Virus record (IMG/VR): IMGVR_UViG_3300035698_005008
Coordinates: 1 to 21,964 of that record
Reading direction: 5' to 3' (one strand)
Source of the DNA: a virus
DNA: 21,964 nucleotides
The notes below the pieces were generated by a model. The model ran no database searches. It saw nothing but the letters and a program-made list of their open reading frames with translations, and had not been told where the DNA came from. Each line of letters begins with the position of its first letter. Position 1 is the first letter of the stretch. Below, piece by piece: positions 242 to 18,830 of the stretch. The position numbers and the translations under genes are program-made.

Positions 242-349
242 ATGAGTCCAGAAGATAAATGTCCGAGATGTGGCACTCATCCATTTATATACTGGCACCT
301 TGGAATGATGGCGAAATGTCATGTCTGCGGTACAAAGTGGAAAGTATGA
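242..349 (+). CDS. 35-residue zinc-ribbon-like protein
   Basis: ATG at 242 follows AAAAGGAG at 227-234 at ideal spacing. The product has two CxxC knuckles, CPRCG at residues 7-11 and CHVCG at 26-30, the classic arrangement of a minimal zinc ribbon (CxxC-x15-CxxC). The intervening residues are aromatic and His-rich (HPFIYWHLG). Function is unknown; small zinc ribbons in phage early regions may bind nucleic acid or host proteins, which is inference. The stop TGA overlaps the next start in an ATGA, implying translational coupling. The same bases can also be read in another frame from 259, but that reading has no ribosome binding site and merges into the next gene's frame. Confidence 0.7.
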   Translation: MSPEDKCPRCGTHPFIYWHLGMMAKCHVCGTKWKV

Positions 350-585
350 GTGATTGGCTACCTACACCAGAAAGCATTAACGCCCTGCCGGAACCATTGC
401 GGAGATACATTCACGATCTCGAATCTTTTTCAGGTGCCGAGTTGATTCAGGAAAACTTTGAGTTGAGGCAGAATTTCGAAGGGGTCAAGGCGCTTGCATT
501 ATCGTATAAAACTAAACCACCGTCAATCTTACAGGAGAAATGTAATGAAAGAGAGAATCAACAGAACGTTTGCGTTAGAGGGTGA
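346..585 (+). CDS. Small helical phage protein, 79 residues
   Basis: The start at 346 is chosen over the in-frame ATG at 259 because it overlaps the stop of the zinc-ribbon gene as ATGA and begins with a sensible N-terminus (MSDWLPTPESINALPEPL). Residues 11-50 look alpha-helical and charged (PLRRYIHDLES, then ENFELRQNFEGVKAL). The 'LPEPLRRYIHDLE' pattern is reminiscent of a common family of small coiled-coil proteins in tailed phages; their role is not known to me. The last 14 residues lie inside the next gene, a 41-base overlap in a different frame, and have a different, Asn/Gln-rich composition. The natural end may therefore be shorter or recently altered. Confidence 0.6.
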   Translation: MSDWLPTPESINALPEPLRRYIHDLESFSGAELIQENFELRQNFEGVKALALSYKTKPPSILQEKCNERENQQNVCVRG

Positions 586-817
586 CGATTCTATTTCATC
601 CGTTGTTTTCGACGACAAGAGAGCCGGGGCGCTTATTTTGGGTACGGATCTCGTAGTTAATTTCACCCTGTCTCAGGGTAAAGAGATGGCAGGCAAAATA
701 TTGGAGACTGTAGCGGAGATGGGTGGCGCAACGACTGACGATACACCATGCCCAGAATGCCAGCAGAACAGAGAGGACGATATGAGTTTTTGCGCCAATT
801 GCGGGCTTGAGCTATGA
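545..817 (+). CDS. 90-residue protein with C-terminal zinc knuckle
   Basis: ATG at 545 is preceded by AGGAG (533-537) at 7 bases, which decides this start over the upstream in-frame ATG at 494. Residues 1-60 form a hydrophobic/polar alternating segment (SSVVFDDKRAGALILGTDLVV) likely to be beta-rich. Residues 69-86 carry CPEC and CANC, a four-cysteine zinc site close to the C-terminus. I do not recognise the family. The last bases overlap the next start as ATGA. The first 41 bases overlap the end of the preceding gene. Regulation is presumably by coupling within the early operon. Confidence 0.65.
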   Translation: MKERINRTFALEGDDSISSVVFDDKRAGALILGTDLVVNFTLSQGKEMAGKILETVAEMGGATTDDTPCPECQQNREDDMSFCANCGLEL

Positions 818-975
818 GTAAATTAATGGGCACCATAGACGTAGATGTAACCCACGAAGTCAAGTATCTGGTGGATACCGATGGAAAGCCGCGCATATTC
901 GACGATAAATTTGAGCTACCGGAAGCCGAAGTTTTTAGATTAATTTTAGAGGATATGGAGGATGTGGAGCCATGA
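814..975 (+). CDS. Small acidic hypothetical protein, 53 residues
   Basis: The ATG at 814 overlaps the preceding stop (ATGA) and the TGA at 973-975 overlaps the following ERF start (ATGA), so this frame is locked between two coupled genes. The product is acidic, especially at the C-terminus (LILEDMEDVEP). It has a short beta-like middle (VKYLVDTDGKPRIFDDKFEL). It lacks cysteines, membrane segments and recognisable motifs. It also carries the ribosome binding sequence for the ERF gene (GGAGG at 957-961). Function unknown. Coding status is inferred from the tight double overlap and absence of an alternative frame. Confidence 0.6.
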   Translation: MSKLMGTIDVDVTHEVKYLVDTDGKPRIFDDKFELPEAEVFRLILEDMEDVEP

Positions 976-1607
976 AAGAAAAATTAAATATTTACCAACG
1001 CCTGAATGAGATTCGCAAATCGGTTGATTATCTAAAAAAAGATGCCAAAGTTCAAGGATACAAGGCCGTATCTCACGACATGGTTACGTCCGAAGTCAGG
1101 AAGCATCTAATAACAAACGGGGTTATGGTTGTTCCGCGCCAAATATCGGGGGTAATCGAAGATGCCGGGAAAGCATCCTCAAACGGTGTTCCATTCACTC
1201 GTTATGTTGCTTTCTATGAAATAGACTTCGTTAATATTGATGACCCTGATGATAAATGCACCGTTTCAATAGGTTCTGTGGCTGAAGATTTAAACGACAA
1301 GGGACCGGGCAAGGCTGTTTCTTACGCTACGAAATACGCCTTCCTGAAAGTGTTTTCCATCGAAACCGGAGAGGATGACGAAAGCAGGCAAGAGCAAAAA
1401 CCTGTGCCGGTGACAGATGCCCAGGTAATATCGCTTAGAGAGATTTGCGAGACAAAAAACTTTCCTGTTGACCGTACCTTGAAAAAACTTGCCGGTAAGT
1501 GGGGTAAAAAGAAAATCGAGGAAATATCTCAAAAAGAATATGATGCCGTGTCTGTGTTTCTGAATGAACAACCGGCCAACGAAGATTTACCGGAGAAATC
1601 CAAATAA
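972..1607 (+). CDS. erf: ERF-family single-strand annealing recombinase
   Basis: A 211-residue protein whose first about 140 residues match the ERF (essential recombination function) pattern. It opens with NIYQRLNEIRKSVDYLKKD, then VQGYKAVSHDMVTSEVRKHL, a beta-strand core (FYEIDFVN), and the conserved GPGKAVSYATKYAFLKVFSIETGEDD-like end of the domain. ERF proteins form rings on single-stranded DNA and anneal complementary strands during phage recombination and replication. Residues 145-205 are a separate Lys/Glu-rich helical tail whose role is not clear. The start overlaps the upstream stop as ATGA, and GGAG lies just upstream. The stop overlaps the YqaJ start by one base (TAATG), so annealer and exonuclease are co-translated, the usual two-component recombination pair. 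Confidence 0.9.
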   Translation: MKEKLNIYQRLNEIRKSVDYLKKDAKVQGYKAVSHDMVTSEVRKHLITNGVMVVPRQISGVIEDAGKASSNGVPFTRYVAFYEIDFVNIDDPDDKCTVSIGSVAEDLNDKGPGKAVSYATKYAFLKVFSIETGEDDESRQEQKPVPVTDAQVISLREICETKNFPVDRTLKKLAGKWGKKKIEEISQKEYDAVSVFLNEQPANEDLPEKSK

Positions 1608-2203
1608 TGGAACAACGCACCCCGGAATGGTTTGCCGCCCGTAGGGGTAAGATCACAGCATCAAGATTTGGCGATGTGATGGCCGGTAAAGGCACCAAGC
1701 GCCGCAAAGCCTATTTGGATGATGTGGTTGACGGCCTGATGGGTGTTCCTGAATTTCCTGACGATCCGCCATGGTTTGCTCACGGGATCAGAAATGAAAA
1801 AAAGGCTTGCGGGTCATACGAATGGGAAAAGGAGATGGCCGGTGAGCCTGTTGATGTAGGTCATATCGGCATGTTCGTTCATCCAGAATATCCGTTTATC
1901 ACTTATTCTCCCGATGGTGTTATGGTTGGAGACGGACGGCTTGAAATTAAGTGCCGTAAGTCGCTAAGATCGCATCTTGAGAGTGTTCGTACCGGGATAG
2001 ACTCTTGCTATAAGCCTCAATGTCAAGGCGGTCTATGGGTGTCTGGGGGCGAATGGTTGGATTTCGTGTCTTATTACGAAAGTGAAAACTTAGGCATGAC
2101 CCTGACTCATATTTACAGAATCAAGCCCGATGAAAAATATATACAGAAAATAGAAACCGCGTGCCTTGAGTTTTGGCGCGAAGTTCAAGAGGCGATAAGA
2201 TGA
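1607..2203 (+). CDS. YqaJ-like (lambda-exonuclease-type) viral recombinase nuclease
   Basis: This 198-residue protein has the features of the YqaJ/lambda Red-alpha exonuclease family. An N-terminal 'RTPEWFAARRGKITASRFGDV' segment is followed by an acidic site at HGIRNE (Glu64), then SPDG (Asp103), then EIK (Glu113 and Lys115), and a downstream Gln-rich QCQGGLW (138-144). These are the PD-(D/E)xK metal-binding and catalytic positions. The enzyme is expected to degrade one strand of duplex DNA ends, exposing the single strand used by ERF. The start is fixed by the TAATG overlap with erf and a GGAGA about 10 bases upstream. The length is typical of the family and all key residues appear intact. 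Confidence 0.88.
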   Translation: MEQRTPEWFAARRGKITASRFGDVMAGKGTKRRKAYLDDVVDGLMGVPEFPDDPPWFAHGIRNEKKACGSYEWEKEMAGEPVDVGHIGMFVHPEYPFITYSPDGVMVGDGRLEIKCRKSLRSHLESVRTGIDSCYKPQCQGGLWVSGGEWLDFVSYYESENLGMTLTHIYRIKPDEKYIQKIETACLEFWREVQEAIR

Positions 2204-2247
2204 CCGAATACGCAATCCTTGACGATTATATGGAGGCCAACGCATGA
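2200..2247 (+). CDS. Possible 15-residue coupling peptide
   Basis: ATG at 2200 overlaps the YqaJ stop (ATGA) and is preceded by AGAGG at 2188-2192. Its TGA at 2245-2247 overlaps the next ATG (ATGA). The peptide would be MTEYAILDDYMEANA. The reading frame also contains GGAGG (2232-2236), the ribosome binding site of the following gene. It could be a real micro-protein, a translational relay, or simply an intergenic leader that happens to be open. Both junctions having the same ATGA form as the rest of the operon is the main argument for translation. Confidence 0.4.
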   Translation: MTEYAILDDYMEANA

Positions 2248-2558
2248 TTAGCCAAACAGTACCATTACCGCCGTGCTTGAGAAAGCGCCTTGTTTTCGGT
2301 GATCGTGAACAGATAGATGCCTTGCGCCAAATGGAATATGATATCGAGGTTCAGGAAAAAAGAACCAAAGATAAATTAGACGGAGTTCTAAAAAAATATG
2401 CTGTCACTATTTCATATTCCGGCGACAATTACGATAGTGTATGGGCCACGTCAAAAAAAGAGGCCATGTCGATAGCGAAGGGAGACTTTTGTGATCCTGA
2501 CAATTGGGAAATAGATCACGTTTCGGCAAGCGAAATAAAACAGGGGGCCACCGCATGA
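2244..2558 (+). CDS. Hypothetical early protein, 104 residues
   Basis: Start ATG 2244 is preceded by GGAGG at 2232-2236. The product has a charged helical N-terminal half (residues 20-50, REQIDALRQMEYDIEV then EKRTKDKL). A compact C-terminal half (about 50-95) reads KYAVTISYSGDNYDSVWATSKKEAMSIAKGD..., a beta-beta-alpha-like pattern seen in small phage proteins of unknown function. No catalytic or metal-binding motif is evident. The stop overlaps the next start as ATGA. Its position directly after erf and the exonuclease suggests a role in DNA metabolism or host takeover, but nothing in the sequence proves it. Confidence 0.65.
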   Translation: MISQTVPLPPCLRKRLVFGDREQIDALRQMEYDIEVQEKRTKDKLDGVLKKYAVTISYSGDNYDSVWATSKKEAMSIAKGDFCDPDNWEIDHVSASEIKQGATA

Positions 2559-2743
2559 AACTCACAGACCCATACCCGAAGAGAAGCACCTCCGAGCGCA
2601 TGAGACTTGTTATGGCATCAGGCCGGTACGATGGGCGATGGGACAATGCCCGTACGCTGTGGGATATGCACGAAGCTGAAAAACCGGTTGCCTTTGAATC
2701 TCAAGGGGCATTCAAAAGATTCTGGAACATATTCTGTAAATAA
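2555..2743 (+). CDS. Small basic hypothetical protein, 62 residues
   Basis: The start at 2555 is chosen because it overlaps the upstream stop as ATGA; in-frame codons further upstream (from 2504) would overlap the previous gene deeply. A run of G (about 2543-2547) can serve as the ribosome binding site. The product is basic and Trp/Arg-rich (MRLVMASGRYDGRWDNARTLWDMHEAEKP) and ends FKRFWNIFCK. It is likely a small helical protein. I do not recognise it. A 26-base gap separates it from the next gene, the first real gap in this operon since the leader. Confidence 0.6.
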   Translation: MKLTDPYPKRSTSERMRLVMASGRYDGRWDNARTLWDMHEAEKPVAFESQGAFKRFWNIFCK

Positions 2744-2769
2744 AGGGCTCCGGCCCGGAAGGTTGAGAG

Positions 2770-2955
2770 ATGGATTCAATAGTTTTTTATTGCAAGGGTT
2801 GTGGAAAGATGTTTTTCGCCACCGTTGATAGACCTGATTGCATGGATAAAGACACAACCAATGAAATAGCCCAATATCTCCACGAAGGGCACCGACTTGA
2901 AAAGGTTAACGTTGAGACTGTTCGTAAAGAATTTAACGGGTGCGATTGTAAATGA
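2770..2955 (+). CDS. Small Cys-rich zinc-finger-like protein, 61 residues
   Basis: ATG at 2770 is preceded by GGAAGG at 2757-2762. The N-terminal half contains FYCKGCGKMFFATV (a CxxC knuckle with flanking aromatics) and a further Cys at DRPDCMD; the C-terminus ends CDCK. A His pair lies between them (HEGHRL). These residues could form one zinc site, of CxxC plus His/Cys type. This is another of several tiny metal-binding-type proteins in the operon. No catalytic function is suggested. The stop overlaps the next start as ATGA. Confidence 0.65.
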   Translation: MDSIVFYCKGCGKMFFATVDRPDCMDKDTTNEIAQYLHEGHRLEKVNVETVRKEFNGCDCK

Positions 2956-3038
2956 AACTCAAACTCAAATACGCCGCCGCCTTTGCGCTTTTCTATTCCG
3001 TGGCGATGTGGGCTTGTGCGGGGTTGGGGTGCTTTTAA
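2952..3038 (+). CDS. 28-residue membrane peptide
   Basis: ATG at 2952 overlaps the preceding TGA and the frame runs to TAA at 3036-3038. The peptide starts KLKLKY and continues with one hydrophobic stretch (AAAFALFYSVAMWACAG), the size of a single membrane span or a signal peptide, ending LGCF. The positive N-terminus predicts N-in orientation. It precedes the lipoprotein gene. It could be a small holin-like or regulatory membrane peptide, but single-span peptides are common and no family is recognised. The ATGA junction is the main support for translation. Confidence 0.45.
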   Translation: MKLKLKYAAAFALFYSVAMWACAGLGCF

Positions 3039-3044
3039 AAATTT

Positions 3045-3074
3045 AAAGGAGATATTATGGAGACATCAAAGGAG
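3045..3074 (+). promoter_or_regulatory. Two Shine-Dalgarno sites for alternative lipoprotein starts
   Basis: AAAGGAG occurs at 3045-3051, five bases before ATG 3057, and again at 3068-3074, nine bases before the in-frame ATG 3084. Either could be used. The forms would differ by nine residues (METSKESRS) in front of the signal peptide. Confidence 0.5.
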
Positions 3075-3533
3075 TCAAGGTCTATGCAACCGAAAATAAA
3101 CAAAACGGTACTAAATAATAGCAAACTGTTTACAGTAGTGTTCGGGCTCCTGGTTGCCCTATCCCTGATCCTATGGCTATCCGGGTGCGTGACCACCGCG
3201 ACCAGCCAGCGGAAGCTCGGATTCAATGAGATGCAAAGAGGGTTTGCGACACTGGAAAAACGCCCTTCTCTTCATGAAACCATCACACTTGATAACATTA
3301 CTGTCCACATTGTCGGAAACCGGGATTCCTTTAAATGGGATAAAGCCGCTGCATTCGGATCTCCGGTGCTCGGATATGCCACACGCAAAAACGAGATCTA
3401 CATTTTCGGTGCTTATGCCGGGGGAAAAATCATTATCAACCAAGGTATCCTGGGGCATGAGCTTAACCATCTGTTGAATTTTAAAAACCCCGTAATTGCA
3501 GATCCTGACAAGCTGGATGATCTGGGGGCTTAA
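3057..3533 (+). CDS. Lipoprotein with HExxH metallopeptidase-like motif
   Basis: A 158-residue protein with a long N-terminal region, one hydrophobic segment (residues 24-40) and a clear lipobox LSGC (41-44). Residue +2 is Val, so the mature lipoprotein should go to the outer membrane by the Lol rule. The mature part contains a beta-rich domain and HELNH at 134-138, the zinc-binding HExxH signature, followed by a short tail NFKNPVIADPDKLDD. The third zinc ligand is not obvious because the protein ends 20 residues later. Two starts are plausible: ATG 3057 and ATG 3084 (residue 10), each with its own AAAGGAG; the second has the better spacing and gives a more typical signal peptide. Possible roles are lysis, superinfection exclusion or surface alteration, all inference. 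Confidence 0.7.
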   Translation: METSKESRSMQPKINKTVLNNSKLFTVVFGLLVALSLILWLSGCVTTATSQRKLGFNEMQRGFATLEKRPSLHETITLDNITVHIVGNRDSFKWDKAAAFGSPVLGYATRKNEIYIFGAYAGGKIIINQGILGHELNHLLNFKNPVIADPDKLDDLGA

Positions 3534-4313: not shown

Positions 4314-5870
4314 TCACGGAGTATTCACCGCCCACACCTGATTATTGGCATCGTTCGTTTCCGTCCCGGCTGATATGAAAACATAACCAGCCAGAACCCC
4401 AGTTCCATAATGGTTCAGCTCGGTTGCGCTGACCTTGTAAACGGTATTGATCACGCATGTTCCGGTTGATATAAGCGCACCAACCCCAAACCGAATAATA
4501 GTTGCTTCAGCTACGTTATCGCCAAACTTGCCGTGAAGTTTATTGTAGATAACGGAAGCATCGGAAACGGTCTCGCGGGTCTGGACAACATCATCGTAGA
4601 TTACTGTGACATCTTCGCCTTCTTTGATCGTTATCAACTCAGCCGCTGCGGAATAATCTACATAGCTCGTATCAAGCACGGTCTCAACTGAGGCAACTCG
4701 CTTCAGGGTGGTAACTGTGGGTTGCATTAGTTGGATGGAAACATTATCCCAATATACACCTCCGTCGCCTTCGGTGTTACCTTCACGAAAACCAACGTAT
4801 CGAGTATTGGAACTATAAGTAAACTCATACACCAATGGAACAAAAGCAACATCGGCTTTAACATAAGTCTTTATAGTGACAGCATTTATAGTTATTGCTG
4901 TATTGGCAGCAGTTTTTAAAGCTACCTGACCAGTTCCGGCACCGGTTCCGTCACTACGAATAGTGGTAGATAACTGAACCCTATCACCAACCGAAAACTT
5001 ACTATCGAGATCGTAGTAACAAGTGTCATTATTGTTCACAGATGCATAATGTAGTGCATAACTACCAACAGATTTTACAACACCCTGAGACTCAAGTGTT
5101 GCAGTTGCGTAAGCTACCCACCCCGTAGTAGCATCAGCCTCATTCCCATTAGGATCACTTGCTGCATTGGCATCTGTGTGAAGCTCCGTCCCATTCGCCC
5201 TCAGTGTCCGGTCCAGCTCCGTCAGGATTGCGTTGCTGCCGGAGAGTTTGCGGAGGGATGTCCAGTGGATTGTGCAACCCTCGCTTGCACCAAAGGCGAA
5301 GTTAACTGCGCCTGTTAATGTGTCGGTTGCAGTAAAAACCTTACGGTTATAACCAGCCGATAAATTTTCTGCGAATTGAATCGTGGCACCACCGTCTCGC
5401 GAAACTCGCCATTGTGGAGTAAGCACAATTCCTGACACATAACATTCAGCAAGCCATATTTCACCAGTAGTGATTGATATTCCGGCTGTAGCAAATTTAC
5501 AGAAACTGACCGCACTGAAGATTGTTTGATAATCGTTTGCTGTTTTAGAAGCGGTAACTGTGCCGCCAACACCTGCTTCAACATTCCAGCCTGTGGCAAT
5601 ATCTCCATTAGCTGTACCTGCACCAGAGGTCGTCCCAGCAGTCCCAGACATATCAGCGCCGGGCTGTAAATTCGCACCATACGGATCATCGGCAGAATCA
5701 GCAGAGGTTTTCAGACCAGTTGCTTCTCCTGCGGCTATTGTTGCGGCCAACTCAGCATAATAGTTGGAAGACCCAAGCGTACCGGAAACCATTGCAGGGT
5801 TCAGCCATGCGCCGGCAGGAATCGCGACTGCGAGAATTAACAGTATTATTAACCAGCGTAATTTTTTCAT
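4314..5870 (-). CDS. Exported fibre/adhesin-like protein with duplicated carbohydrate-binding-like domains
   Basis: 518 residues. Residues 1-21 form a Sec signal peptide (MKKLRW, then a hydrophobic core, then IPAGAW). Two related modules follow, about 53-210 and 229-383. Each opens with a TSADSADDPYG or TDANAASDPNGNE type sequence leading to TGW, and each closes with a W-x-S/N-x-S-L/I strand (IHWTSLRKL; VYWDNVSIQL), as in jelly-roll carbohydrate-binding modules. The C-terminal about 130 residues are beta-rich with GVGALISTGTCVI and a final Asn-rich end. Low Cys and high Thr/Ala/Gly content are typical of phage fibres. ATG 5870 follows GGAGG formed at the upstream stop. Likely an extracellular or periplasmic receptor/surface-binding protein; exact role unknown. 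Confidence 0.65.
   Translation of the reverse strand: MKKLRWLIILLILAVAIPAGAWLNPAMVSGTLGSSNYYAELAATIAAGEATGLKTSADSADDPYGANLQPGADMSGTAGTTSGAGTANGDIATGWNVEAGVGGTVTASKTANDYQTIFSAVSFCKFATAGISITTGEIWLAECYVSGIVLTPQWRVSRDGGATIQFAENLSAGYNRKVFTATDTLTGAVNFAFGASEGCTIHWTSLRKLSGSNAILTELDRTLRANGTELHTDANAASDPNGNEADATTGWVAYATATLESQGVVKSVGSYALHYASVNNNDTCYYDLDSKFSVGDRVQLSTTIRSDGTGAGTGQVALKTAANTAITINAVTIKTYVKADVAFVPLVYEFTYSSNTRYVGFREGNTEGDGGVYWDNVSIQLMQPTVTTLKRVASVETVLDTSYVDYSAAAELITIKEGEDVTVIYDDVVQTRETVSDASVIYNKLHGKFGDNVAEATIIRFGVGALISTGTCVINTVYKVSATELNHYGTGVLAGYVFISAGTETNDANNQVWAVNTP
4722..5714 (-). repeat. Internal duplication within the 518-residue exported protein
   Basis: Residues 53-210 and 229-383 share the order: Asp/Ala-rich opening with 'SDP-G' or 'DDPYG', then 'ATGW' or 'TTGW', then beta-rich middle, then a closing Trp-containing strand. 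The similarity is at protein level and divergent; it was judged by eye, not by alignment software. Confidence 0.45.
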
Positions 5871-6521
5871 TTATCCTCCGTTGCTCCAGTCCCCACCGAC
5901 ATAACCAAGCGTTCTCCATCCGTCAGTTCCAGACCCATCGGCATCGTCTGTGCTCATAATACATATAATATCCCCTGGCTGTCCAGGGGAGTCTATTGAT
6001 TCGCCGGCTGCAAGTGCTACCCCATGAAGATTAAACTTTTCAGCATTATCGGGGTTGAGGTTTAATGTTTCAGCGATGTCTTGAACTATGAACATAGCCA
6101 GCGCACCATAACCAGCATCGGCGGCGGCATCAAGAGTCACAATTGCAGCAGCAGTAGCAAGATATATTTTACCGCGCAAGTCTGTGGTGTTGAGGGCTAT
6201 ATTGGTCGTTATGTTGGTTCCCAGAGGAGCAAGTCCAGAAATCGAATCGCCCGAAATTATAGTGCTTTTGACATTTAATCCCCCGTTTGATAAGGTAAGG
6301 TCTTTGTTGTAAGTCAAATCCCCGCCGGCACCAACCGTCATAACACCGGTCACACCACCGGCACCGTCTGTGTAATTTATAGGAGACTCAAATGTTTGCG
6401 TTCCGGTCCATGTATGATCTCCAGACAAATCTACACCCCCGGCGGTATTAATTTCCGGGCCTGCAAGGGCAACGCCGGCGCTAAATATGATTGCCAAAAT
6501 CGTTCTAAATAAAGTTTTCAT
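5871..6521 (-). CDS. Exported fibre-like protein, 216 residues
   Basis: The start at 6521 (MKTLFRTIL) is preferred over the upstream in-frame start at 6572 because GGAG lies about 10 bases upstream and it gives a clean signal peptide ending GVALAG. The next segment, NTAGGVDLSGDHTWTGTQTFE, followed by GDLTYNKDLTLSNGGLNV, is the repetitive beta style of tail-fibre shafts. The C-terminal third (ATAAAIVTLDAAADAGYGALAMFIV) resembles small globular fibre tips. No enzymatic motif is present. The 425-residue upstream gene ends four bases before this start. The signal peptide closely resembles that of the 425-residue neighbour (MKxLFRxxLAxxxSxGxAxAG), suggesting the export signals share ancestry. Confidence 0.65.
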   Translation of the reverse strand: MKTLFRTILAIIFSAGVALAGPEINTAGGVDLSGDHTWTGTQTFESPINYTDGAGGVTGVMTVGAGGDLTYNKDLTLSNGGLNVKSTIISGDSISGLAPLGTNITTNIALNTTDLRGKIYLATAAAIVTLDAAADAGYGALAMFIVQDIAETLNLNPDNAEKFNLHGVALAAGESIDSPGQPGDIICIMSTDDADGSGTDGWRTLGYVGGDWSNGG

Positions 6522-6525
6522 ATCC

Positions 6526-7803
6526 TTATATCTCCTGTATTTCGAGCCAAATCTGAATGGTTTTGCCGGCAACTTCGCATCCTGCCGATGCAGATATCCG
6601 AGTCCCTTTGTTAAAAATAAAATCAGTACCAGGCGAAGCGCCTTGTGCTTTATTCTTTTTAGTCTCTGTCATGGCCATATCAAACCATGTGCTTCCAGAA
6701 TCGGCAGAAAACCTCATCACAAATTTCTTTTCTTCTGACGGTTCAAATCGATAGCCGACAATTTTAAAAGGCTTCGTTGCGGCGGCAGCACTTCTTAACT
6801 CAGTATCCGCACCCCAAGTATCTTCTCCTGCACTGACCACAACACCGGCATAATTAACACCGCCAAGAGGCTCAATTGCAATCGGAAACTCACCGATCAT
6901 ATTATTGTAATGCTGATCCTCAACGTCATCGTCTATGTTGACCGTATTATGATGAAGTTGAATTGTATCAAAATGCTGTTCGTTCCCGGCATCTATATCA
7001 ATCGCAATTCCACTGGCATCGTCACAATCTCCAATATCGAAAAAACTAAATAGATTTTCATCAGAGGCAGCATTGTCGATATGGATTGCTTTTAAACATT
7101 CATGGATTCTAAATCTTTCAAATAATCCGCTGGCAACTTTATCCAATTTCAGCCCCGTCATAAATTCCGGTTCCCCGGTCATAAAAACATCGTGCGCCTT
7201 ACCGTTTTTTAAAGTCGTACCCCCGGTTGCTCCATCTAAAATCAAAGCAGTTGCTGCGCCTGTTAAATCTGACCCGACAAATTGAATACGGTTAAGCCTG
7301 AAAGCACCCTTTGTAATTATAACCCCGTTGCAATCATCCACTCCGAGATTGAAATTTAAATCTTTCAGCGAAACATAACCAGTGAATTTCATTATCGAAG
7401 TGGCGGAGCCATCGGTATTTTTTATCTTTACCCATGTTCGGTGAGATCCAACTATCTCGTAATTTCCAGTCCACGTAGGATCGCCTGCCGTGTCAATATC
7501 GTAATTATCCGTTGGCCCGGTGGCAACAGCAATCAAAATGAGAGTTAAATCATTGATATCTGTGCTGGCTGCATCGAGGGCGTCCTGAATTTTATTATAT
7601 GCTTTTCCCCATGTCGAACCGTCTGTATTATCGCCATTCTTAGAAACATGGAGCTTTGCGGTAATAGCACGATTAATAACAGCGGAACCCATTTTCTCGT
7701 TAATCGATTCAGCCCTTCTCCTCGTTGAAACAGAATCAATGCCCGCAAATGCTATTCCCGAACTAAGCAGAACCGCTAAAAATATTCTAAATAAGATTTT
7801 CAT
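6526..7803 (-). CDS. Exported right-handed beta-helix-like protein
   Basis: 425 residues from ATG 7803, which follows GGGGTG ending the previous gene; the in-frame TTG at 7821 lies inside that gene and is unlikely. Residues 1-20 are a signal peptide (MKILFRIFLAVLLSSGIAFAG). Residues 49-80 carry KLHVSKNGDNTDGSTWGKAYNKIQDALDAA-type sequence, the usual entry of pectate-lyase-like beta-helix proteins. The middle has short repeating strands with Asn/Asp turns (GVIITKGAFRLNRIQF, FSFFDIGDCDDASGIAIDI, LHHNTVNI), consistent with helix coils. The last 110 residues form a separate beta domain with Trp. Such folds in phages often bind or cleave polysaccharide; catalytic residues cannot be assigned. Confidence 0.65.
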   Translation of the reverse strand: MKILFRIFLAVLLSSGIAFAGIDSVSTRRRAESINEKMGSAVINRAITAKLHVSKNGDNTDGSTWGKAYNKIQDALDAASTDINDLTLILIAVATGPTDNYDIDTAGDPTWTGNYEIVGSHRTWVKIKNTDGSATSIMKFTGYVSLKDLNFNLGVDDCNGVIITKGAFRLNRIQFVGSDLTGAATALILDGATGGTTLKNGKAHDVFMTGEPEFMTGLKLDKVASGLFERFRIHECLKAIHIDNAASDENLFSFFDIGDCDDASGIAIDIDAGNEQHFDTIQLHHNTVNIDDDVEDQHYNNMIGEFPIAIEPLGGVNYAGVVVSAGEDTWGADTELRSAAAATKPFKIVGYRFEPSEEKKFVMRFSADSGSTWFDMAMTETKKNKAQGASPGTDFIFNKGTRISASAGCEVAGKTIQIWLEIQEI

Positions 7804-7805
7804 TT

Positions 7806-8555
7806 CTACACCCCGAACCAATCTCTTTCAGATTTAAATATCGTCAACCAATCTGAAGCACTAAGCGCCCTGTTCCAAATTCTCGGACGCGACATTTTAC
7901 TTTTATACCAGTTGGCGTCTTTGGTGTATCGGCAACCGATAACGAAATCACGATTGCAAGTATCCGGGTCCAGCATTCCAGATACTTCATAGGCCATTGT
8001 GAGAGCTACCCCGTTCCGATAATGAACAGGATATAAATCACCGCCCGTTCTCGATATTCCCAATAGAGCCCATGTGCCAGGTGTCCACCCGGTTGAAAAA
8101 CAAGTGCTGTTCGTGTTTGGTGCCAAGCTCACATGGCTATGCCTTTGAGAAACAGTATTCCGGCCCCCACTCACATTTAAATATGTTTCCCACCCGTCCA
8201 AATTAACCCCATACCGCGCCATTATTATTTCAGACCAGCTCCCGGCAGAGTTCCAGTTTATCCATGCCGAAAGGCTGTAATCTCCGGCTGTAAAATTCAA
8301 ATCAACCGTTTTAGCAGCAGGGCAATCAAGATAAACTCCATCGTTAAAACCACCACCCACCGTAACAAAATCCAATACCATAAGACCAGAGGCTAAGGAA
8401 GTCCACGCAAACGAACCACCCCCCGGATCGTTCATCGTCATTGGGTGATGAGGCTTTGCGTGATCCATTGTAACTGCCCCAATACCTTCGCGAAATGGCA
8501 AATCAAGCAAAATATCTTCATTTATAGGTATATTGTCATAACCTTTATAGGGCAT
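7806..8555 (-). CDS. LamG/concanavalin-like lectin protein without signal peptide
   Basis: The start at 8555 (MPYKGYDN) has CGAGG eight bases upstream and overlaps the previous gene by 11 bases; ATG 8573 would add six residues with a poorer site. About 249 residues show a LamG-like jelly roll: ILLDLPFREG, GVYLDCPAAKTVDLNFTAGDYSLSAWINW, WALLGISRTGG, HYRNGVAL, and the closing SRPRIWNRALSASDW that is typical of the family. These domains bind glycans or proteins. It is the only one of six adjacent genes that lacks an export signal; the frame is closed by a TAG a few codons upstream, so a longer signal-bearing form is excluded. Probably a virion adhesin or a partner of the exported set. Confidence 0.65.
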   Translation of the reverse strand: MPYKGYDNIPINEDILLDLPFREGIGAVTMDHAKPHHPMTMNDPGGGSFAWTSLASGLMVLDFVTVGGGFNDGVYLDCPAAKTVDLNFTAGDYSLSAWINWNSAGSWSEIIMARYGVNLDGWETYLNVSGGRNTVSQRHSHVSLAPNTNSTCFSTGWTPGTWALLGISRTGGDLYPVHYRNGVALTMAYEVSGMLDPDTCNRDFVIGCRYTKDANWYKSKMSRPRIWNRALSASDWLTIFKSERDWFGV

Positions 8556-9135
8556 AGAAAACCTCGTAATCATAATCCCGGTTGGTGCCTACTGTCTTTT
8601 CCATTGTAACCTTTATACCGTATCGATTATTTTCCAATTCTACATGAATCAATAACGGATCTTGAACGCCTGCAAAAGTGACCTCATCCAACATTATGTA
8701 ATTACCACCTGATTTAATTCTATAGTATTCACGGATCACAACCGTTTCACCGGCAGTATGGGCAGTGAAATTTAAGAAAATATTCTCTGGGGTATAAATT
8801 CCCGAAGGTGCATTGTTGATGTAAATATTCTGCTCAGTTCCATCGGTGGTTAACGTTCCACCCGTTTCTGTGAGAGTGAAAATCGAAGATGATATTGTAG
8901 AAACAACGCTGTAAATCTCTTTAATAATTGCGACGATTGACGTAGTATTCGAAGCTGCCGCCGCCGTGTCAGTCTTATTGCCTATAACATCCTGCATCTC
9001 GTCATTATCAGTGCTGTCCTGAGATGGAACCGAACCATCAAACACACCAGAAGATACCATTGGACCCGCCGGCACCCGAGGAACAAAGAGGAACAACGCA
9101 ATAACAGCGCAGAATAAAGCTAATGATTTTTTCAT
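8545..9135 (-). CDS. Exported fibre-like protein, 196 residues
   Basis: ATG 9135 follows AGAGG at the end of the previous gene. Residues 1-24 are a signal peptide (MKKSLALFCAVIALFLFVPR...PAG). Residues 45-80 contain DVIGNKTDTAAAASNTTSIVAIIKEIYSV-type sequence, a heptad-like segment seen in trimeric phage fibre proteins. This is followed by a beta-rich head (GGTLTTDGTEQNIYINNAPS, then VVIREYYRIKSGGNYI). No catalytic motif. The combination of a fibre trimerisation-like segment with a Sec signal is unusual, since fibres normally assemble in the cytoplasm. Function in receptor binding or surface coating is inferred from style only. Confidence 0.6.
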   Translation of the reverse strand: MKKSLALFCAVIALFLFVPRVPAGPMVSSGVFDGSVPSQDSTDNDEMQDVIGNKTDTAAAASNTTSIVAIIKEIYSVVSTISSSIFTLTETGGTLTTDGTEQNIYINNAPSGIYTPENIFLNFTAHTAGETVVIREYYRIKSGGNYIMLDEVTFAGVQDPLLIHVELENNRYGIKVTMEKTVGTNRDYDYEVFYAL

Positions 9136-9138
9136 AGC

Positions 9139-9513
9139 TTACCTCTTTTTAAAATAGGGTACAAATTCAACGGTTCCGGCTGTCGTCACATCGATGTATA
9201 TTCCGGTGAAACATCTTACCGGAGGCCACAAGCTGAGTGCCTGGACTCTATCATTTCCTGCACTCGTTACAACCCAAGACGGTATGATCTTCGTTCCTGT
9301 GGCGGTGGTGCTATCATATACATCAACAGTGACGGAGTTGGTACCGTCTGTGGATACGATCAGCCCGTGAAATAAGCAATCACCGTTATGCACAAGATCG
9401 TCAGTCGTCGCAACATCTCCAGGCTGTACCCAAGAATCCTCTCCGGCCTTGTTTCCTGCGTAGACCAAAGAAGCGGTAAAAATTACTAAAATAATGATAA
9501 AGAGTTTTTTCAT
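9139..9513 (-). CDS. Exported small beta-rich protein, 124 residues
   Basis: ATG 9513 has AGGAG about 10 bases upstream. Residues 1-19 form a textbook signal peptide (MKKLFIIILVIFTASLVYAG), with cleavage expected after Ala-Gly. The mature part is a single beta sandwich: DCLFHGLIVSTDGTNSVTVDVYDSTTATGTKI, then VQALSLWPPVRCFTGIYIDVT, resembling small phage decoration or tail proteins. It has two cysteines (in GDCLF and RCFTG) that could form a disulfide in the periplasm, which would fit export. It is the first of the exported cassette after the ejection-type genes, separated from them by 42 bases. Confidence 0.65.
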   Translation of the reverse strand: MKKLFIIILVIFTASLVYAGNKAGEDSWVQPGDVATTDDLVHNGDCLFHGLIVSTDGTNSVTVDVYDSTTATGTKIIPSWVVTSAGNDRVQALSLWPPVRCFTGIYIDVTTAGTVEFVPYFKKR

Positions 9514-9555
9514 TGTGTGGTCTCCTGTGCTGCTTCAATTGCTTGTCTATCTATT

Positions 9556-11097
9556 TTATTGAGCATTCTCACCGCCCTGCCTACCTGCCTGGAATAATCC
9601 CAGAGAAACAAATCCAGAAGTAGGAGATATCTGGACGCCTTCTTTTATTAATTCATTCAGTACTATACCGAGTTTCGCCTTGAATGCAGGCGTATCAAAC
9701 AACCCTAACGCTATGGCACCCGCTGCGCCTGGCCCACCGGCTATCATCCCGCCCGTGGTTCCTTTTATCGGGATACCGATCCCTAATAGATCTCTATTTG
9801 AAATCCTGTTTGCAGGTTGTTCGAGAGCCTTTTTTAATTCAATAAATGCGCCCTCTGCCTTGTTTAATTGCTTTATTTCTGGAAAAAAAACCTCAATAGA
9901 TTCCTTCGCTGCTTTTGCGACTGCGAGCTGTGCCTGTGCTGACGCTGGACTTTCCGTTGTTTTATTGTAAAGGCTTTCGTTTTGTTTATATATTTTTTGT
10001 TTTAATTTTTGTGCATCTGCCGGGCTCAATGGCCGTGTTACTCTCCTTGATCCTTTGACGGTCTTGTCAATCATAACCGGATTACCCTTAGAATCAACGA
10101 GACCAGAAGCGACTTTTCTGACTCTACCAACAGGAACTAATTTTGTATTTGCAAGATTTATTTCTTTTTGAACATTAAGGATTTCCCGCTTGGCTTTTAA
10201 TGGCCTGCCTGACAATCTGAACTCTTCTTTTAATTCATTGAAACCTTTGAAAAGATTTTTCACCGGTATTTTTTGCCCGGTTTCTACAGCAGCGTCAATC
10301 CTTGCTGTTATTTCTGCATTAAGTCCATTTATCTTTCCTCTGATTTTATCTAACCCTTTAATATTGGGCATTATTTTGTTATCAAGGGCGGTTCTTGTCA
10401 TTGCTGCCCGTTGTGCTGCGTTAAATTTTGACGGAGGAAACTTGACTGCGCTTTCAAATAATTTACCAGGTAACGATTTTGGAATGAACTGTTTCCCGAT
10501 CTTGGCGGCTGTTTTTGTGCCAACAGTAAAAGGATCAACCGCCGCCCCGAGCTTTCCTGCTGCCCTTCCTATCTTTGATAGTTTTTCGACTTTTGATAAC
10601 CCGCCAACCCCTTTGACTATTCCACCACCAGCTACCAGCACAGACGCTATATCACCGGCAATTCCTACTGGATCTGTCTTAACTGTTTTCGCTAAGTTAT
10701 CAATAGAACCGTATCTATCTTTGAAAAACTGAATTAAATTATCAACTGCAACTTCGCTGTCTTGTGTCCCCGGAACAAATATCTTTTCCGCTATTCCTTG
10801 ACCCAGAGAACCTATTGCTTTTGCTGTGTCAAACGGGTGAATAAATGGCGTTATTAAATCCTCAACGAATCCCAAAGCGCTCTTTGGTACGTTTATTGCT
10901 GTCTCAGCCATGAACGCACCAAACCCTCCGTCTGGTTCCTGTGCAAAAAGATTGCCTGCAACCTCTGACTTTACGCTATCTGAAAGGGCGTTAAAATTGG
11001 GATCAACTGAGTTAAGAACCTCGACCTTCGCTTCGTCACTAAGGTTCAGAAATTCCGTATTTTTCTTGAGAGAATCTATTGTAATTTTTGGAGCCAT
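9556..11097 (-). CDS. Ejection-type internal virion protein, 513 residues
   Basis: ATG 11097 is preceded by AAAGGA located in the previous stop region. The N-terminus is helical (LKKNTEFLNLSDEAKVEVLN). It is followed by amphipathic segments and a Gly/Ala-rich hydrophobic stretch (IAGDIASVLVAGGGIVKGVGGLSK) in the centre. A Lys-rich helical region spans about 240-410, and another Gly-rich hydrophobic segment is near the C-terminus (GGMIAGGPGAAGAIALG). These are features of podovirus proteins that leave the capsid and form a channel through the envelope. No lytic transglycosylase motif is visible. It forms a pair with the upstream 502-residue gene, two bases away. Assignment rests on composition and context. 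Confidence 0.5.
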   Translation of the reverse strand: MAPKITIDSLKKNTEFLNLSDEAKVEVLNSVDPNFNALSDSVKSEVAGNLFAQEPDGGFGAFMAETAINVPKSALGFVEDLITPFIHPFDTAKAIGSLGQGIAEKIFVPGTQDSEVAVDNLIQFFKDRYGSIDNLAKTVKTDPVGIAGDIASVLVAGGGIVKGVGGLSKVEKLSKIGRAAGKLGAAVDPFTVGTKTAAKIGKQFIPKSLPGKLFESAVKFPPSKFNAAQRAAMTRTALDNKIMPNIKGLDKIRGKINGLNAEITARIDAAVETGQKIPVKNLFKGFNELKEEFRLSGRPLKAKREILNVQKEINLANTKLVPVGRVRKVASGLVDSKGNPVMIDKTVKGSRRVTRPLSPADAQKLKQKIYKQNESLYNKTTESPASAQAQLAVAKAAKESIEVFFPEIKQLNKAEGAFIELKKALEQPANRISNRDLLGIGIPIKGTTGGMIAGGPGAAGAIALGLFDTPAFKAKLGIVLNELIKEGVQISPTSGFVSLGLFQAGRQGGENAQ

Positions 11098-14379: not shown

Positions 14380-15114
14380 TTACCTCAATACAAAATAAAG
14401 ATTACCTAATGTTCCGGTTGGATTGAGTGTCTTTGACCATACAATAGTGAATCCATCCGCATCCAGAGAGAATAGTTCCCCGTTGTGCACGTTGGTTCCG
14501 TCAGTGATAAGTGAGCAATTACTATTTGAAAATCGCCATGTCGAAGCTACCGCATTGTGATTATCGTACAAAACTAAATGATCGGCTAATGTATCAAATC
14601 CGATTGACATTTTGCCTGCTGCACCGTTAACCAAACTTATAATAAAAATTATTGACGGTTTAAAACCAACCCCGTCAATACTCTGGTTTCCAGCAGCCAC
14701 CGACATATCTCTAATGAACGATCCAGCATATACGCCCGAATCCCATTCAGGCAAAGTCCCGGCAGCATTCACAAACAGTTTTTCATTTGCGCTACCTATC
14801 GCAAGTTTTGAAAGCACCCCCACTGCCGAAGCATAAAGTAAATCGCCAATCGTATAGGATGACAACCCAGTGCCGCCTGAAGCAACGGCAAGCGCATTAG
14901 TAAGCGTTAGGGTGTCAATCCCTGCTATGCCTGCTGTAATGTCCCCAACAAATCGATGAGCCCCGGTAACTATAGAATCTGCCTCGTTATCAGTCTTGGC
15001 TCCAAGCTCCTTTTTTAATTGAGTAACGAGAGAAAACAGATACTTGGCTAATTCGTTCTTGTCTTTCGACAAAATAGCTTTTTCATCATATGGAAGTTGA
15101 ACAATATCAGGCAC
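14380..15114 (-). CDS. Tail-fibre-like protein, 244 residues
   Basis: The start is GTG at 15114, chosen because GGGAGG lies about 6 bases upstream and it overlaps the previous stop by eight bases; no ATG fits. Residues 1-40 are helical (KDKNELAKYLFSLVTQLKKEL). They lead into a shaft-like stretch, LTNALAVASGGTGLSSYTIGDLLYASAVG, whose 'ASGGTG' and 'GDLLYAS' motifs are hallmarks of phage tail fibres. The C-terminal 110 residues form a beta-rich head (SIDGVGFKPSIIFIISLVNGA, then ADGFTIVWSKTLNPTGTLG), similar to small fibre head domains. No signal peptide, unlike the fibre-like genes further downstream. Likely part of the tail tip. Confidence 0.7.
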   Translation of the reverse strand: MPDIVQLPYDEKAILSKDKNELAKYLFSLVTQLKKELGAKTDNEADSIVTGAHRFVGDITAGIAGIDTLTLTNALAVASGGTGLSSYTIGDLLYASAVGVLSKLAIGSANEKLFVNAAGTLPEWDSGVYAGSFIRDMSVAAGNQSIDGVGFKPSIIFIISLVNGAAGKMSIGFDTLADHLVLYDNHNAVASTWRFSNSNCSLITDGTNVHNGELFSLDADGFTIVWSKTLNPTGTLGNLYFVLR

Positions 15115-16639
15115 GGTTCAGCCTCCCTAATGGTTTAAAAAACGGCATAATTGCATGTATTTGTGGAGCCCTGCCCGATTCGGTATGATAAAGTCTTATC
15201 CTGTGTGAAGATCCAACGGCCCCGGCGTATAGCCGAACCCATGACTTTTCTGCCGACTGGTCAAAGCTAAGTGTTTGAGTTACATACGGAACGTCCTCGA
15301 AATCTAAATAAAAATCAACCGAAACATCAATATCACCTATCGAAGATACAAGAAAATCAATATAACCGAGTCTGGCTTTCATGCCTGCCTTGGTGTACGG
15401 ATTCCACCGCCCGGACATAACTTCAAAAGATATATCCGACCCATCGTCTTGCCCTGTGTCGTTAAGTTTGAAAACCTTACCAGATAAATCTCCAGCAAGT
15501 ATAGTCGGGAACCCTGCGCTATTCGAAGATTCTAACCACGGCCCCGTGTCATTCGCCCATGTAACCCCGGCTGATTCTGTCCACGTTTGCCCGGACTCAA
15601 CCGTGTAGTCTCCCATGACCGTAAACGGAAATCCGAAATTGGCCCAGCTTGCGTCATCATAGTTTAGCACAAGCGCCTTGTCAGAGTCCGTATTGCCAGG
15701 CGACGGGTACAACATGAGAAGGTGTTCTAAAGAATCATCACGCCACGAAAAGGCAGCGCCAACATTCGCAGAATCAAAAGACTCTACTATGTCTGGTATT
15801 TTAGAATCGATTCTATCGACATTAATTCCATCACAAATTGTTACACCGATCTTAGACATTGCGAATGTATCTTGCTTTAGGGCTATTGGGCTGAAAGGTG
15901 CCGCTGATCCTTCATACACAGAAATTTGTTCCCACCTGAACGGCAAGACGGAGTTTCCAGTATATTTTAAAATCCAGACAGAAGAATCAAAATAAACAAC
16001 TATATCGTCGCCCCGATAGGCGACACCTTGTATCCATTCCGCTGTCGGGCAGTCAACGAACTCGTCACCTGTCCAGTCTGCAGGGTTTCCAGCGGCACAC
16101 CATCTCGCTCTTTGTGGATACAGTGTTCCTCCCTCTGTATTTCTGAACGTTATTAACCTTTCTTTTTGAACCGCAAAAAACGCAACGGTTGTTACGTCGT
16201 TGCCGCCCCCGTCAATATCCATATCGAAATCTGCTACCACTGTTCCGTTGTAAGTCCTGGGGCGGTCGTTGTTGTTGGTCATATACATGGTGCCGTCCCA
16301 ATTGACCCAATTGATAAATTCTTGATCCGAACCACTCAACTTATCCGACCCGTCAATATCGGTTAAAACTCCGGCTGAATTTGTGAACAGTCTTTTGGTA
16401 TCGTGAACTAAAAGTTCATTTGATCCGTCTGTCTTAACATAGTTCATCAACCCTATAATTGGGTGAGCGTCCCCCGTATCTGCAAACTCTGTATATCCGA
16501 GTCTCTTTTGAAGAATACCACGCCTTAAAAATGCGTTGTCCAGCGTCTTGAAAGCATCCTGAGGCAACAGCCACGGCTCAAGATCAAGCTCAAGGCCGAC
16601 TCTGAAATTTGCTATTAAAAATGGTTGATAGCTACCCAT
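15107..16639 (-). CDS. Beta-propeller-like podovirus tail/stabilisation protein, 510 residues
   Basis: ATG 16639 overlaps the upstream stop by one base (TAATG). The N-terminus, ELDLEPWLLPQDAFKTLDNAFLRRGILQKRLGYTEF, is a recognisable opening of large tail proteins in podovirus-like genomes. Repeated four-strand blocks follow (ELLVHDTKRLFTNSAGVL, WDGTMYMTNNNDRPRTYNG, VYFDSSVWILKYTG, TICDGINVDRIDSKIPDIVE), which look like propeller blades. The last 150 residues form a separate beta domain. This resembles P22 gp10-type stabilisation or related nozzle proteins that plug the portal channel; the assignment to that family is by resemblance and gene order, not by search. Confidence 0.55.
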   Translation of the reverse strand: MGSYQPFLIANFRVGLELDLEPWLLPQDAFKTLDNAFLRRGILQKRLGYTEFADTGDAHPIIGLMNYVKTDGSNELLVHDTKRLFTNSAGVLTDIDGSDKLSGSDQEFINWVNWDGTMYMTNNNDRPRTYNGTVVADFDMDIDGGGNDVTTVAFFAVQKERLITFRNTEGGTLYPQRARWCAAGNPADWTGDEFVDCPTAEWIQGVAYRGDDIVVYFDSSVWILKYTGNSVLPFRWEQISVYEGSAAPFSPIALKQDTFAMSKIGVTICDGINVDRIDSKIPDIVESFDSANVGAAFSWRDDSLEHLLMLYPSPGNTDSDKALVLNYDDASWANFGFPFTVMGDYTVESGQTWTESAGVTWANDTGPWLESSNSAGFPTILAGDLSGKVFKLNDTGQDDGSDISFEVMSGRWNPYTKAGMKARLGYIDFLVSSIGDIDVSVDFYLDFEDVPYVTQTLSFDQSAEKSWVRLYAGAVGSSHRIRLYHTESGRAPQIHAIMPFFKPLGRLNRA

Positions 16640-17796
16640 TATCTAAACCTCACAATTGCGTCATCTTGTAAATTTGGGGGGAAGATAGTCCGTCCAGATG
16701 CACCCATGTCGAGCCTGCCTACCGCGTCTCGGGCTTCTATTTCACCAGCAAGGCTTCTGTATTGATCGTTTGCTGTACCCTGCATATTGATAGTATCTTG
16801 ATACCCGAGTTCTTGCAATTTGCCAACCAGACCCTCGCGTTTATTCATTAATTCAGAATATCGTGGTGTTCCAATTGCATCACTCATTTGTTTATTGAGT
16901 TCTGATATCTGACTTTCTATCTTATGTTTTCCTTTCATCGCGGGGTTTAAAAATTCTTCAACACTACCACCCCTTGCAAACCCCTCTATACCCTGAACCG
17001 TGTGTTGCAATTCATGCAGAATGACCTCTCTTGCTTCACCCATATTCAAATCGTCGCTTATGTATATATTTTTACCGGACACATACCCTTTAGCCCCACG
17101 CATACTTGCACTATTAGCAGGTATCTCTGATATTTTATAATCCCAAGGCAAGGATGGGTACGCCTCGTATAATTTATCATGTTTGAACACGTCCCCAAGC
17201 TCTGTCACTCTAAAATGTTTGCTACGAGCTTCCTTCATTACGTCCTTAAATGGAACATAATCATTGTTTCCTTTGGTGTTTTGCCCAATAATACGAGCAG
17301 CATCATCGTCAATCTCAGACCTCCACATTCCGTCCATACCCTTAAACCATCCGGTCTCTTTCCTGACGGCCTCAGAAGTCTCACCGGCTTTACGCATCTT
17401 TTTTGCAAGAGGCAAAAAGTCAGCTACTTTCCCAGCGCCCTTGATTCCCCGGAATATCCCTCCAAGTAAAGGTATTGTTCCAACCGAATTAGTAAACGCA
17501 TCAAGATAGTCAAACCCGGCATCCTTATACCGGCCCTCGGACAACGCTATTTCGGCCTTGTTACCAGATGCGAGTGTGTCCCCTACAGCTATGGCCTCAC
17601 CACTACCAGGGGCTACGTTTGCTCCAAATTCTCCGAGAATCTTCATTGTTTGAGCAAGTTCTTTTAGCTTTAACATTTTTTCATCAAACGTTGGTATCTG
17701 CTCACCGGTAATTGTGCTCGTGGGCCTACCGAACAACGAACCTAAAACCTTGTGACTGCTACCCATACCTAATATTTCGAGCAAATCATTGTCCAT
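16639..17796 (-). CDS. Zincin-like metallopeptidase of the polyvalent-protein type, 385 residues
   Basis: Residues 147-358 hold a recognisable module found in phage and plasmid polyvalent proteins. It consists of ETGWFKGMDGMWRSEIDD (147-164), LGDVFKHDKLYEAYPSL (200-216), and a strand NIYISDDL. HELQH follows at 261-265, then EGFARGGS (271-278) and YRSLAGEIEAR (346-356). HExxH supplies two zinc ligands and the general base; Glu in GEIEAR is a likely third ligand. The first 140 residues include a Gly-rich hydrophobic segment (SVGTIPLLGGIFRGIKGAG) that could insert in membranes. Here the module is free-standing and sits between virion genes, so it may be injected with DNA or process a virion protein. 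The start overlaps the upstream gene by 11 bases. Confidence 0.65.
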   Translation of the reverse strand: MDNDLLEILGMGSSHKVLGSLFGRPTSTITGEQIPTFDEKMLKLKELAQTMKILGEFGANVAPGSGEAIAVGDTLASGNKAEIALSEGRYKDAGFDYLDAFTNSVGTIPLLGGIFRGIKGAGKVADFLPLAKKMRKAGETSEAVRKETGWFKGMDGMWRSEIDDDAARIIGQNTKGNNDYVPFKDVMKEARSKHFRVTELGDVFKHDKLYEAYPSLPWDYKISEIPANSASMRGAKGYVSGKNIYISDDLNMGEAREVILHELQHTVQGIEGFARGGSVEEFLNPAMKGKHKIESQISELNKQMSDAIGTPRYSELMNKREGLVGKLQELGYQDTINMQGTANDQYRSLAGEIEARDAVGRLDMGASGRTIFPPNLQDDAIVRFR

Positions 17797-18104: not shown

Positions 18105-18830
18105 TTAATCCTTCGTGGCTATTATGCAATTATATGCTGCTGGTCGCCATGTGTTAGCCGTTGCTCCACCCGCCGTAGTTCCGGAAGCCGCACCTGTTGA
18201 ATTAACCACACCCGAAATATTTGAGTCGTGAGACCATGATTGATTAGCGTCTATAGCCCCTGCCCCTGATCCACCGGCAATACCCTTAACTGTATGCACA
18301 TGAGCAATTACTGTGTTGTAGGTGTGTGAGTGGTTTGGCTGAGTCCATGTACCTGTAGCGTGAGCAATTCCACCAGCAAGGCCACCCGCCACCGATCCTT
18401 TTGTGACAAATACAAGTTTATCATTTACTGTGGCATCTATCGTGAACCCTGTTGGGGCAGCGTCTTGATAAAAAAGCATCTTTGACCCAGACGGTATAGC
18501 TCCGTCGAGGGCTCCCGCACTGGTCAATTGAAGTTCGTTGCCGTCCTCGTCTTCGAAATGAAGCTCTGCCTTGCCTGCAACATCTTTTAAATATAAGAAA
18601 CCCTTGTTTGCAACATTGGCAGGCGTAGCGATTGGCTCATGAAACGTAATCTGTCGATGTTCTCCATGATCTGCCTGGACCCCGGCAAGAGCCATGTAAT
18701 GATCGACATCTATACGCTCTTGTGTATCTGTTTTTTCGTCTCTAATTCTCAGCGCACCCTCTGACCTGTCGGCGCTATCTGCTGGAATTGCCTCGTATGC
18801 TGCGTTCCAATTGTTCGAAAAGGCTGTCAT
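18105..18830 (-). CDS. Tail-collar-like fibre protein with HxH motifs, 241 residues
   Basis: ATG 18830 follows GAGG in the previous stop. Residues 63-115 contain a shaft (FHEPIATPANVANKGFLYLKD, GKAELHFEDEDGNELQLTSAG). Residues 115-240 resemble a collar-type head: GSKMLFYQDAAPTGFTID (the 'P-GW/F' turn), LVFVTKGSVAGGLAGG, then HSH (167-169) and HVH (177-179), and the closing TANTWRPAAYNCIIATKD that ends many collar/fibre proteins. HxH pairs in T4-type fibres bind iron between strands; metal binding here is therefore plausible. It is probably a short tail fibre or tip protein. No signal peptide. Confidence 0.7.
   Translation of the reverse strand: MTAFSNNWNAAYEAIPADSADRSEGALRIRDEKTDTQERIDVDHYMALAGVQADHGEHRQITFHEPIATPANVANKGFLYLKDVAGKAELHFEDEDGNELQLTSAGALDGAIPSGSKMLFYQDAAPTGFTIDATVNDKLVFVTKGSVAGGLAGGIAHATGTWTQPNHSHTYNTVIAHVHTVKGIAGGSGAGAIDANQSWSHDSNISGVVNSTGAASGTTAGGATANTWRPAAYNCIIATKD

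Follow-up and report, generated by a model that had tools for sequence, protein, structure and literature searches.

In the window studied here, which spans an entire IMG/VR fragment (21,964 bases) of an uncultured tailed phage, the late operon ends with a cassette of six genes, five of which encode proteins that, judged as sequence, carry canonical cleavable Sec signal peptides; their translocation and cleavage in the cell are predicted. By comparison of gene order with relatives, the cassette occupies the tail-fibre locus, and export in this group of phages is, as far as homologous proteins indicate, a facultative module and not a property of one protein family. Once exported, the cassette proteins probably have their function outside the cytoplasm, exerted when the cell lyses or afterwards. 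There is an even chance, in our estimate, that these fibre- and lectin-type proteins would then dock on released particles as outer fibres or decorations. The features are listed in Table 1.

Table 1. Main features of the window, with positions and strands (a slash marks the predicted cleavage site)
Feature	Position	Strand	Remarks
Early genes	259-3533	+	ERF-like and YqaJ-like proteins among them, recognised by eye
Long late operon	21876 to 3530	-	convergent with the early genes
G1, 518 aa	4314..5870	-	signal peptide MKKLRWLIILLILAVAIPAGA/W, AGA/W site read by eye; long beta-rich mature part
G2, 216 aa	5871..6521	-	signal peptide, ALA/G; beta-rich mature part
G3, 425 aa	6526..7803	-	signal peptide, AFA/G; mature part beta-helix-like by eye
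G4, LamG lectin-like protein	7806..8555	-	no signal; Pfam Laminin_G_3
G5, 196 aa	8545..9135	-	signal peptide, VPA/G; beta-rich mature part
G6, 124 aa	9139..9513	-	signal peptide, VYA/G; beta-sandwich domain
t1, internal virion (ejection) protein	9556-11097	-	borders the cassette
t7, virion structural protein phrog_3287	15107-16639	-	E 1.4e-32; served to place the phage
t10, 241 aa, conserved virion-operon protein	18105..18830	-	collar-type by reading; no signal in the window
SU10-type adaptor	18832-19485		late operon
t13, 303 aa	20571..21482	-	coil of ~50 residues, internal signal-peptide-like segment VPANA/E, then fibre-like part

Judging from its late operon, the window phage is a relative of the LUZ24-like podoviruses. 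Distant matches of t7 are found in the Pseudomonas phages NV1, UFV-P2, and Bjorn and in Microcystis phages, and t1 resembles an internal virion protein that, in the record of Sinorhizobium phage phiM5, is noted as detected in particles. Single-protein pattern searches with t7, G3, and G6 gave no close relatives, profile patterns being needed; the profile of t1 retrieved 80. Cellular relatives were found only in Desulfatibacillum alkenivorans DSM 16219 and in one Desulfatibacillum MAG, which makes a diderm sulphate reducer a reasonable guess for the host lineage of the group, a guess not extended to the window phage itself. In these two genomes (L160 2063-13799 and L161 2048-13803, respectively) there are clusters of particle-gene relatives comprising t11, t10, t7, t4, and t3 relatives, terminase, portal, and capsid genes recognised by eye, and a holin-like gene. 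On one side, both clusters are bounded by similar host genes; genes for integrase, replication, or ejection were not seen in them, and they are perhaps a domesticated element resembling a gene-transfer agent.

Several other features of the window deserve mention. The contig starts with low-complexity DNA (1-240), one frame of which codes for Ala/Pro/Thr repeats, perhaps a repeat that stopped the assembly. Where the early operon converges on the late one, adjoining the cassette, lies the gene of a predicted lipoprotein (3057-3533, plus strand; LSGC lipobox from an internal start) with an HELNH motif, possibly a metallopeptidase. A virion-operon protein (16639-17796, minus strand) contains the polyvalent-protein domain LPD23 and has weak metallopeptidase and eCIS-core matches. 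The virion operon also includes a Wzy_C O-antigen ligase/polymerase-type membrane protein (19448-20545, minus strand; Pfam 41.9 bits, cut-off 31.7), present as well in the sister record (L128 7612-8538), and phage-driven seroconversion of the host through such a protein is possible. Models of anti-phage defence gave no match.

The preliminary description had singled out five proteins by their N-termini. Their open reading frames are present at the claimed starts (5870, 6521, 7803, 9135, and 9513), and all five begin with MK, continue with a hydrophobic core and an Ala/Gly cleavage site, and are scored as signal peptides. The positive n-region, the hydrophobic core, and the small residues at -3 and -1 are the type I (SPase I) criteria for Sec signals. 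The scorer is home-made and was applied to the 27 proteins of the window, among which it picks exactly G1, G2, G3, G5, and G6. Among controls, it calls OmpA, MalE, PhoA, LamB, Bla, and OmpF signal peptides, Lpp a lipoprotein, and FtsH TM, and it calls none in LacI, GroEL, and RecA. It is negative for G4, the sole cassette gene without a signal, as had been noted; the start of G4 at 8555 is again preferred, the frame being also open to an ATG at 8573. The internal signal-peptide-like segment of t13 is an addition to the earlier list. A usable ribosome site (GGAGG, AGGAG, or GAGG) precedes four of the five signal genes, and the remaining one (start 7803) is joined by stop-start coupling to the gene before it. 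In the DNA of the leader region only G2 and G3 stand out, being 64% identical against 39-47% in the other pairs.

Two other readings of the N-termini were rejected. G1-G3, G5, and G6 are called non-lipoprotein signals and have no lipobox cysteine, G4 being signal-less. As for outer-membrane barrels, G1 to G6 end in NTP, NGG, QEI, FGV, YAL, and KKR, with no terminal aromatic residue, and the model of G6 is a beta sandwich.

Five signals in one run exceed chance. With the same scorer at a stricter cut, and with the genes of the relatives (mostly fragments) taken from a simple gene caller, signal genes make up 5 of ~20 late genes in the window versus 0/380 in 28 distant-relative loci (Fisher 1.9e-7); there are none among 145 genes in seven stretches of isolate phages. 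An AxA-type site lies near 62% of internal hydrophobic segments versus 39/43 N-terminal ones; the motif is thus frequent by chance and weak evidence if taken alone. Cysteine, whose enrichment would point to the periplasm, is not significantly enriched (p 0.14).

The position of the cassette in a virion operon, proposed earlier, is borne out by the relatives, which have tail-fibre or virion genes beyond the same border gene. Past the t1 homologue there are signal-less proteins matching tail-fibre families in three loci (L012, L056, and L067) and one matching a virion structural family in a fourth (L015). In phiM5 the operon stops after the t1-like gene, and minus-strand genes come next. Cassettes of the same type, sought in related phages as had been suggested, recur in a sister genome and in three other uncultured phages, with mature parts that are mostly unrelated. 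The sister record (L011, L092, L093; 36,350 bases) breaks off inside t1; at its opposite contig end, after ERF-like and YqaJ-like genes, it has two signal-bearing late-strand genes (584 and 182 residues), and this gene order suggests that the two ends are adjacent in the genome. In L029 a signal-bearing G6 homologue is accompanied by three more genes with such N-termini, and L090 has three or four signal-bearing genes. L120, found through G6 in a 47 kb uncultured phage, has six consecutive signal genes (4918-10736), a run longer than that of the window and at a different genome position, between terminase-like and portal-like genes (names by eye). Apart from G6, the cassette proteins of the window have no convincing homologue in the L011, L029, L090, and L120 loci. 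Elsewhere, two signal-bearing proteins are inserted between t10 and t7 homologues (L115 3999-5975, identical to L130 8013-9989).

The label "fibre-like", given earlier to all six products, holds for G4 and G6; for G1, G2, G3, and G5 it reflects composition and position only. G4 matches Laminin_G_3 (Pfam, 44.7 bits against a cut-off of 27.6; 2e-11) and is the only protein of the cassette to qualify as a LamG, or concanavalin-like, lectin. The mature part of G6 is modelled as a beta sandwich with a mean pLDDT of 81 (~90 across most of it). Among PDB folds the model finds nothing at E 0.001 or better, only generic beta sandwiches, and its best matches among modelled folds are phage proteins, mostly of 91-103 residues. 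For G1, G2, G3, and G5 neither Pfam nor PHROG gave a confident family and no fibre homologue was detectable, and the two of them searched for relatives of solved structure have none. G2 has a weak, sub-threshold Phage_OMP match confined to residues 1-66, and a single-sequence fold of G3 was discarded (mean pLDDT 42). None of 50,697 phage records searched by tblastn gave a match to G1, G3, G5, G6, or the Wzy-like protein.

Tail families are matched by the mature parts of some signal-bearing proteins in the relatives. The mature part of L090:14077 matches a tail-fibre family (PHROG, 8.5e-8), and its residues 206-361 match minor tail proteins of Microbacterium phages. Weaker matches to tail families were obtained for L126:14262 and L120:4918, and the former contains the repeat ALGGTNATTAAGARSSLGV, which by eye we take to be one from phage tail fibres. 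L090:16920 has DUF2341 and GH43 domains, and L093 has a weak, sub-threshold match to a disaggregatase-related family. One could view the cassette as cargo, a region of exoproteins captured from bacteria (adhesins and glycan-active proteins) that alter the surroundings of the infected cell and are unrelated to the particle. The variable content, the recurrence at another genome position in L120, the GH43 domain, and the disaggregatase-related match would fit such a cargo. Yet a number of the mature parts have matches among phage tail families and phage folds, and with late expression the cell would have little time to benefit; we consider this origin very unlikely.

Three protein families occur both with and without a signal: t10, the coil family in the slot of t13, and the G6 domain. 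The t10 protein of the window starts with MTAFSNNWNAAYE. Its orthologue in L128/L011 has an exact signal prefix and starts with MKRVFIGLSIILFAVTVYA-ANTRTWNASYE, directly behind the upstream gene; in L126 a different leader precedes the same start. No signal is present in the remaining t10 relatives that were checked. In the L011 record the signal-bearing t10 is the only copy found, and the t7 tree, a polytomy, is compatible with one signal gain on t10. In the t14-t11 slot (the connector region), L125, L126, L128, and L117 have a signal-like N-terminus followed by a coil conserved around NPxxLxxxLNxxDxExDA, although the scorer labels the L126 member "TM". L166 has two signal-less copies there, whose starts are close to the mature-protein starts of the signal-bearing relatives. 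In the window this slot is filled by t13, where the coil comes first, the signal-like segment next, and the fibre-like part last. The beta sandwich of G6 is preceded by a signal in the window, L029, and L120; in L063 it stands, within the virion operon, behind a different, signal-less N-terminal segment. These three families suggest that export is a module gained or lost on virion-type fibre and decoration proteins. The premise of the preliminary description, that Sec export removes proteins from virion assembly, is weakened accordingly: t10 is a virion-operon protein, yet it bears a signal in two relatives and none in most, so that export and a role in the particle need not exclude each other.

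The same comparison bears on whether the hydrophobic N-termini are uncleaved docking peptides, holding the proteins in the particle or at the membrane during assembly. The replacement of the leader by another N-terminal segment in L063, as if both were attachment devices, and the location of most homologues of the window proteins in a virion operon are what one would expect of such peptides. The starts, however, are rich in Lys, the cores short, and the cleavage sites of the A/G kind, as in type I signals, and in most relatives t10 works without any such segment, which makes uncleaved peptides improbable.

If the leaders are cleaved signals, the lack of a lipobox, an outer-membrane barrel end, or another recognised anchor implies that the exported proteins would stay soluble once in the periplasm and be of use chiefly after lysis, the outer surface being out of reach before it unless another exporter helps. 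The roles proposed in the preliminary description (coating the infected cell, masking receptors, trapping glycans, or joining particles after lysis) look alike at the level of sequence. The missing lipid or outer-membrane anchor, together with the gain and loss of signals on virion-type proteins, favours action at or after lysis. A protein functional with or without its leader would act most simply where the two pools meet, and docking on released particles is ranked first for this reason. Late in infection, as general knowledge of the Sec pathway would have it, the precursors would cross the inner membrane through SecYEG and signal peptidase would cut off the leader. Folding of the fibres would take place in the periplasm, in parallel with particle assembly in the cytoplasm, and the exported proteins would remain soluble until lysis mixes both pools and allows them to dock. 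This would be two-compartment virion assembly in a tailed phage. The wider claim that this clade of phages routes some components of its own particle through the host Sec system (outer fibres and decorations, and in some members a conserved collar-like protein) and mounts them after lysis is held tentatively, at somewhat less than even chances.

According to the main rival to docking, the exported proteins act without the particle: as lectins, either periplasmic or released, they would occupy or block receptors much as T5 Llp does, and the benefit would be superinfection exclusion or protection of progeny from loss on debris. In line with this rival are the signals themselves, domains of a lectin or glycan-active kind (the window's LamG, GH43 and DUF2341 in L090), and a Wzy_C gene in the same operon, which makes a change of the envelope plausible; phages also do export such proteins, T5 Llp being periplasmic and blocking FhuA (PMC9586334). 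However, before lysis a soluble lectin in the periplasm has no access to glycans at the surface, the cassette genes are late whereas superinfection exclusion tends to be an early function, and the signals on t10 are left unexplained, t10 being a conserved protein of the virion operon with no second copy seen. Receptor blocking is rather unlikely, and docking after lysis remains our preferred reading.

Tailed phages are described as assembling the whole particle in the cytoplasm. Signals that come and go on virion-operon proteins, and exported proteins filling the tail-fibre locus, make this view testable. The significance would lie either in assembly, by the addition of fibres after lysis, or in the control by the phage of envelope and superinfection, and phage annotation may be missing secreted fibre proteins. 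A literature search, with most subscription papers outside its reach, returned no description of signal-bearing tail-fibre cassettes.

Among known systems, lambda Lom is similar in being a signal-bearing gene amid tail genes (PMC12309495), but Lom is an outer-membrane beta barrel, whereas G1 to G6 lack barrel ends and the Phage_OMP match of G2 is sub-threshold and covers the first 66 residues. The superinfection-exclusion lipoproteins T5 Llp and Cor are also phage-encoded, exported, and periplasmic (PMC9586334), export in the window being predicted from sequence. They are small lipoproteins, unlike the window proteins, which have no lipobox, reach 518 residues, belong to a late operon, and occur several per genome. 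PblA and PblB of Streptococcus phage SM1 are comparable as phage-encoded surface components mediating binding (PMC2920869), and no anchor for display on the host surface was found in the sequence of the window proteins. PblA and PblB are also tail proteins; they are set apart by having, as far as known, no signal peptide and a release by lysis-gene action, and by the Gram-positive host and the temperate phage. Ordinary tail fibres differ in having a virion-attachment N-terminus and no signal, and G1, G2, G3, and G5 resemble none of them detectably. The tail fibres of LUZ24-like and related podoviruses nevertheless occupy the same locus after the internal virion proteins, and the signal-bearing relatives match tail PHROGs in their mature parts.
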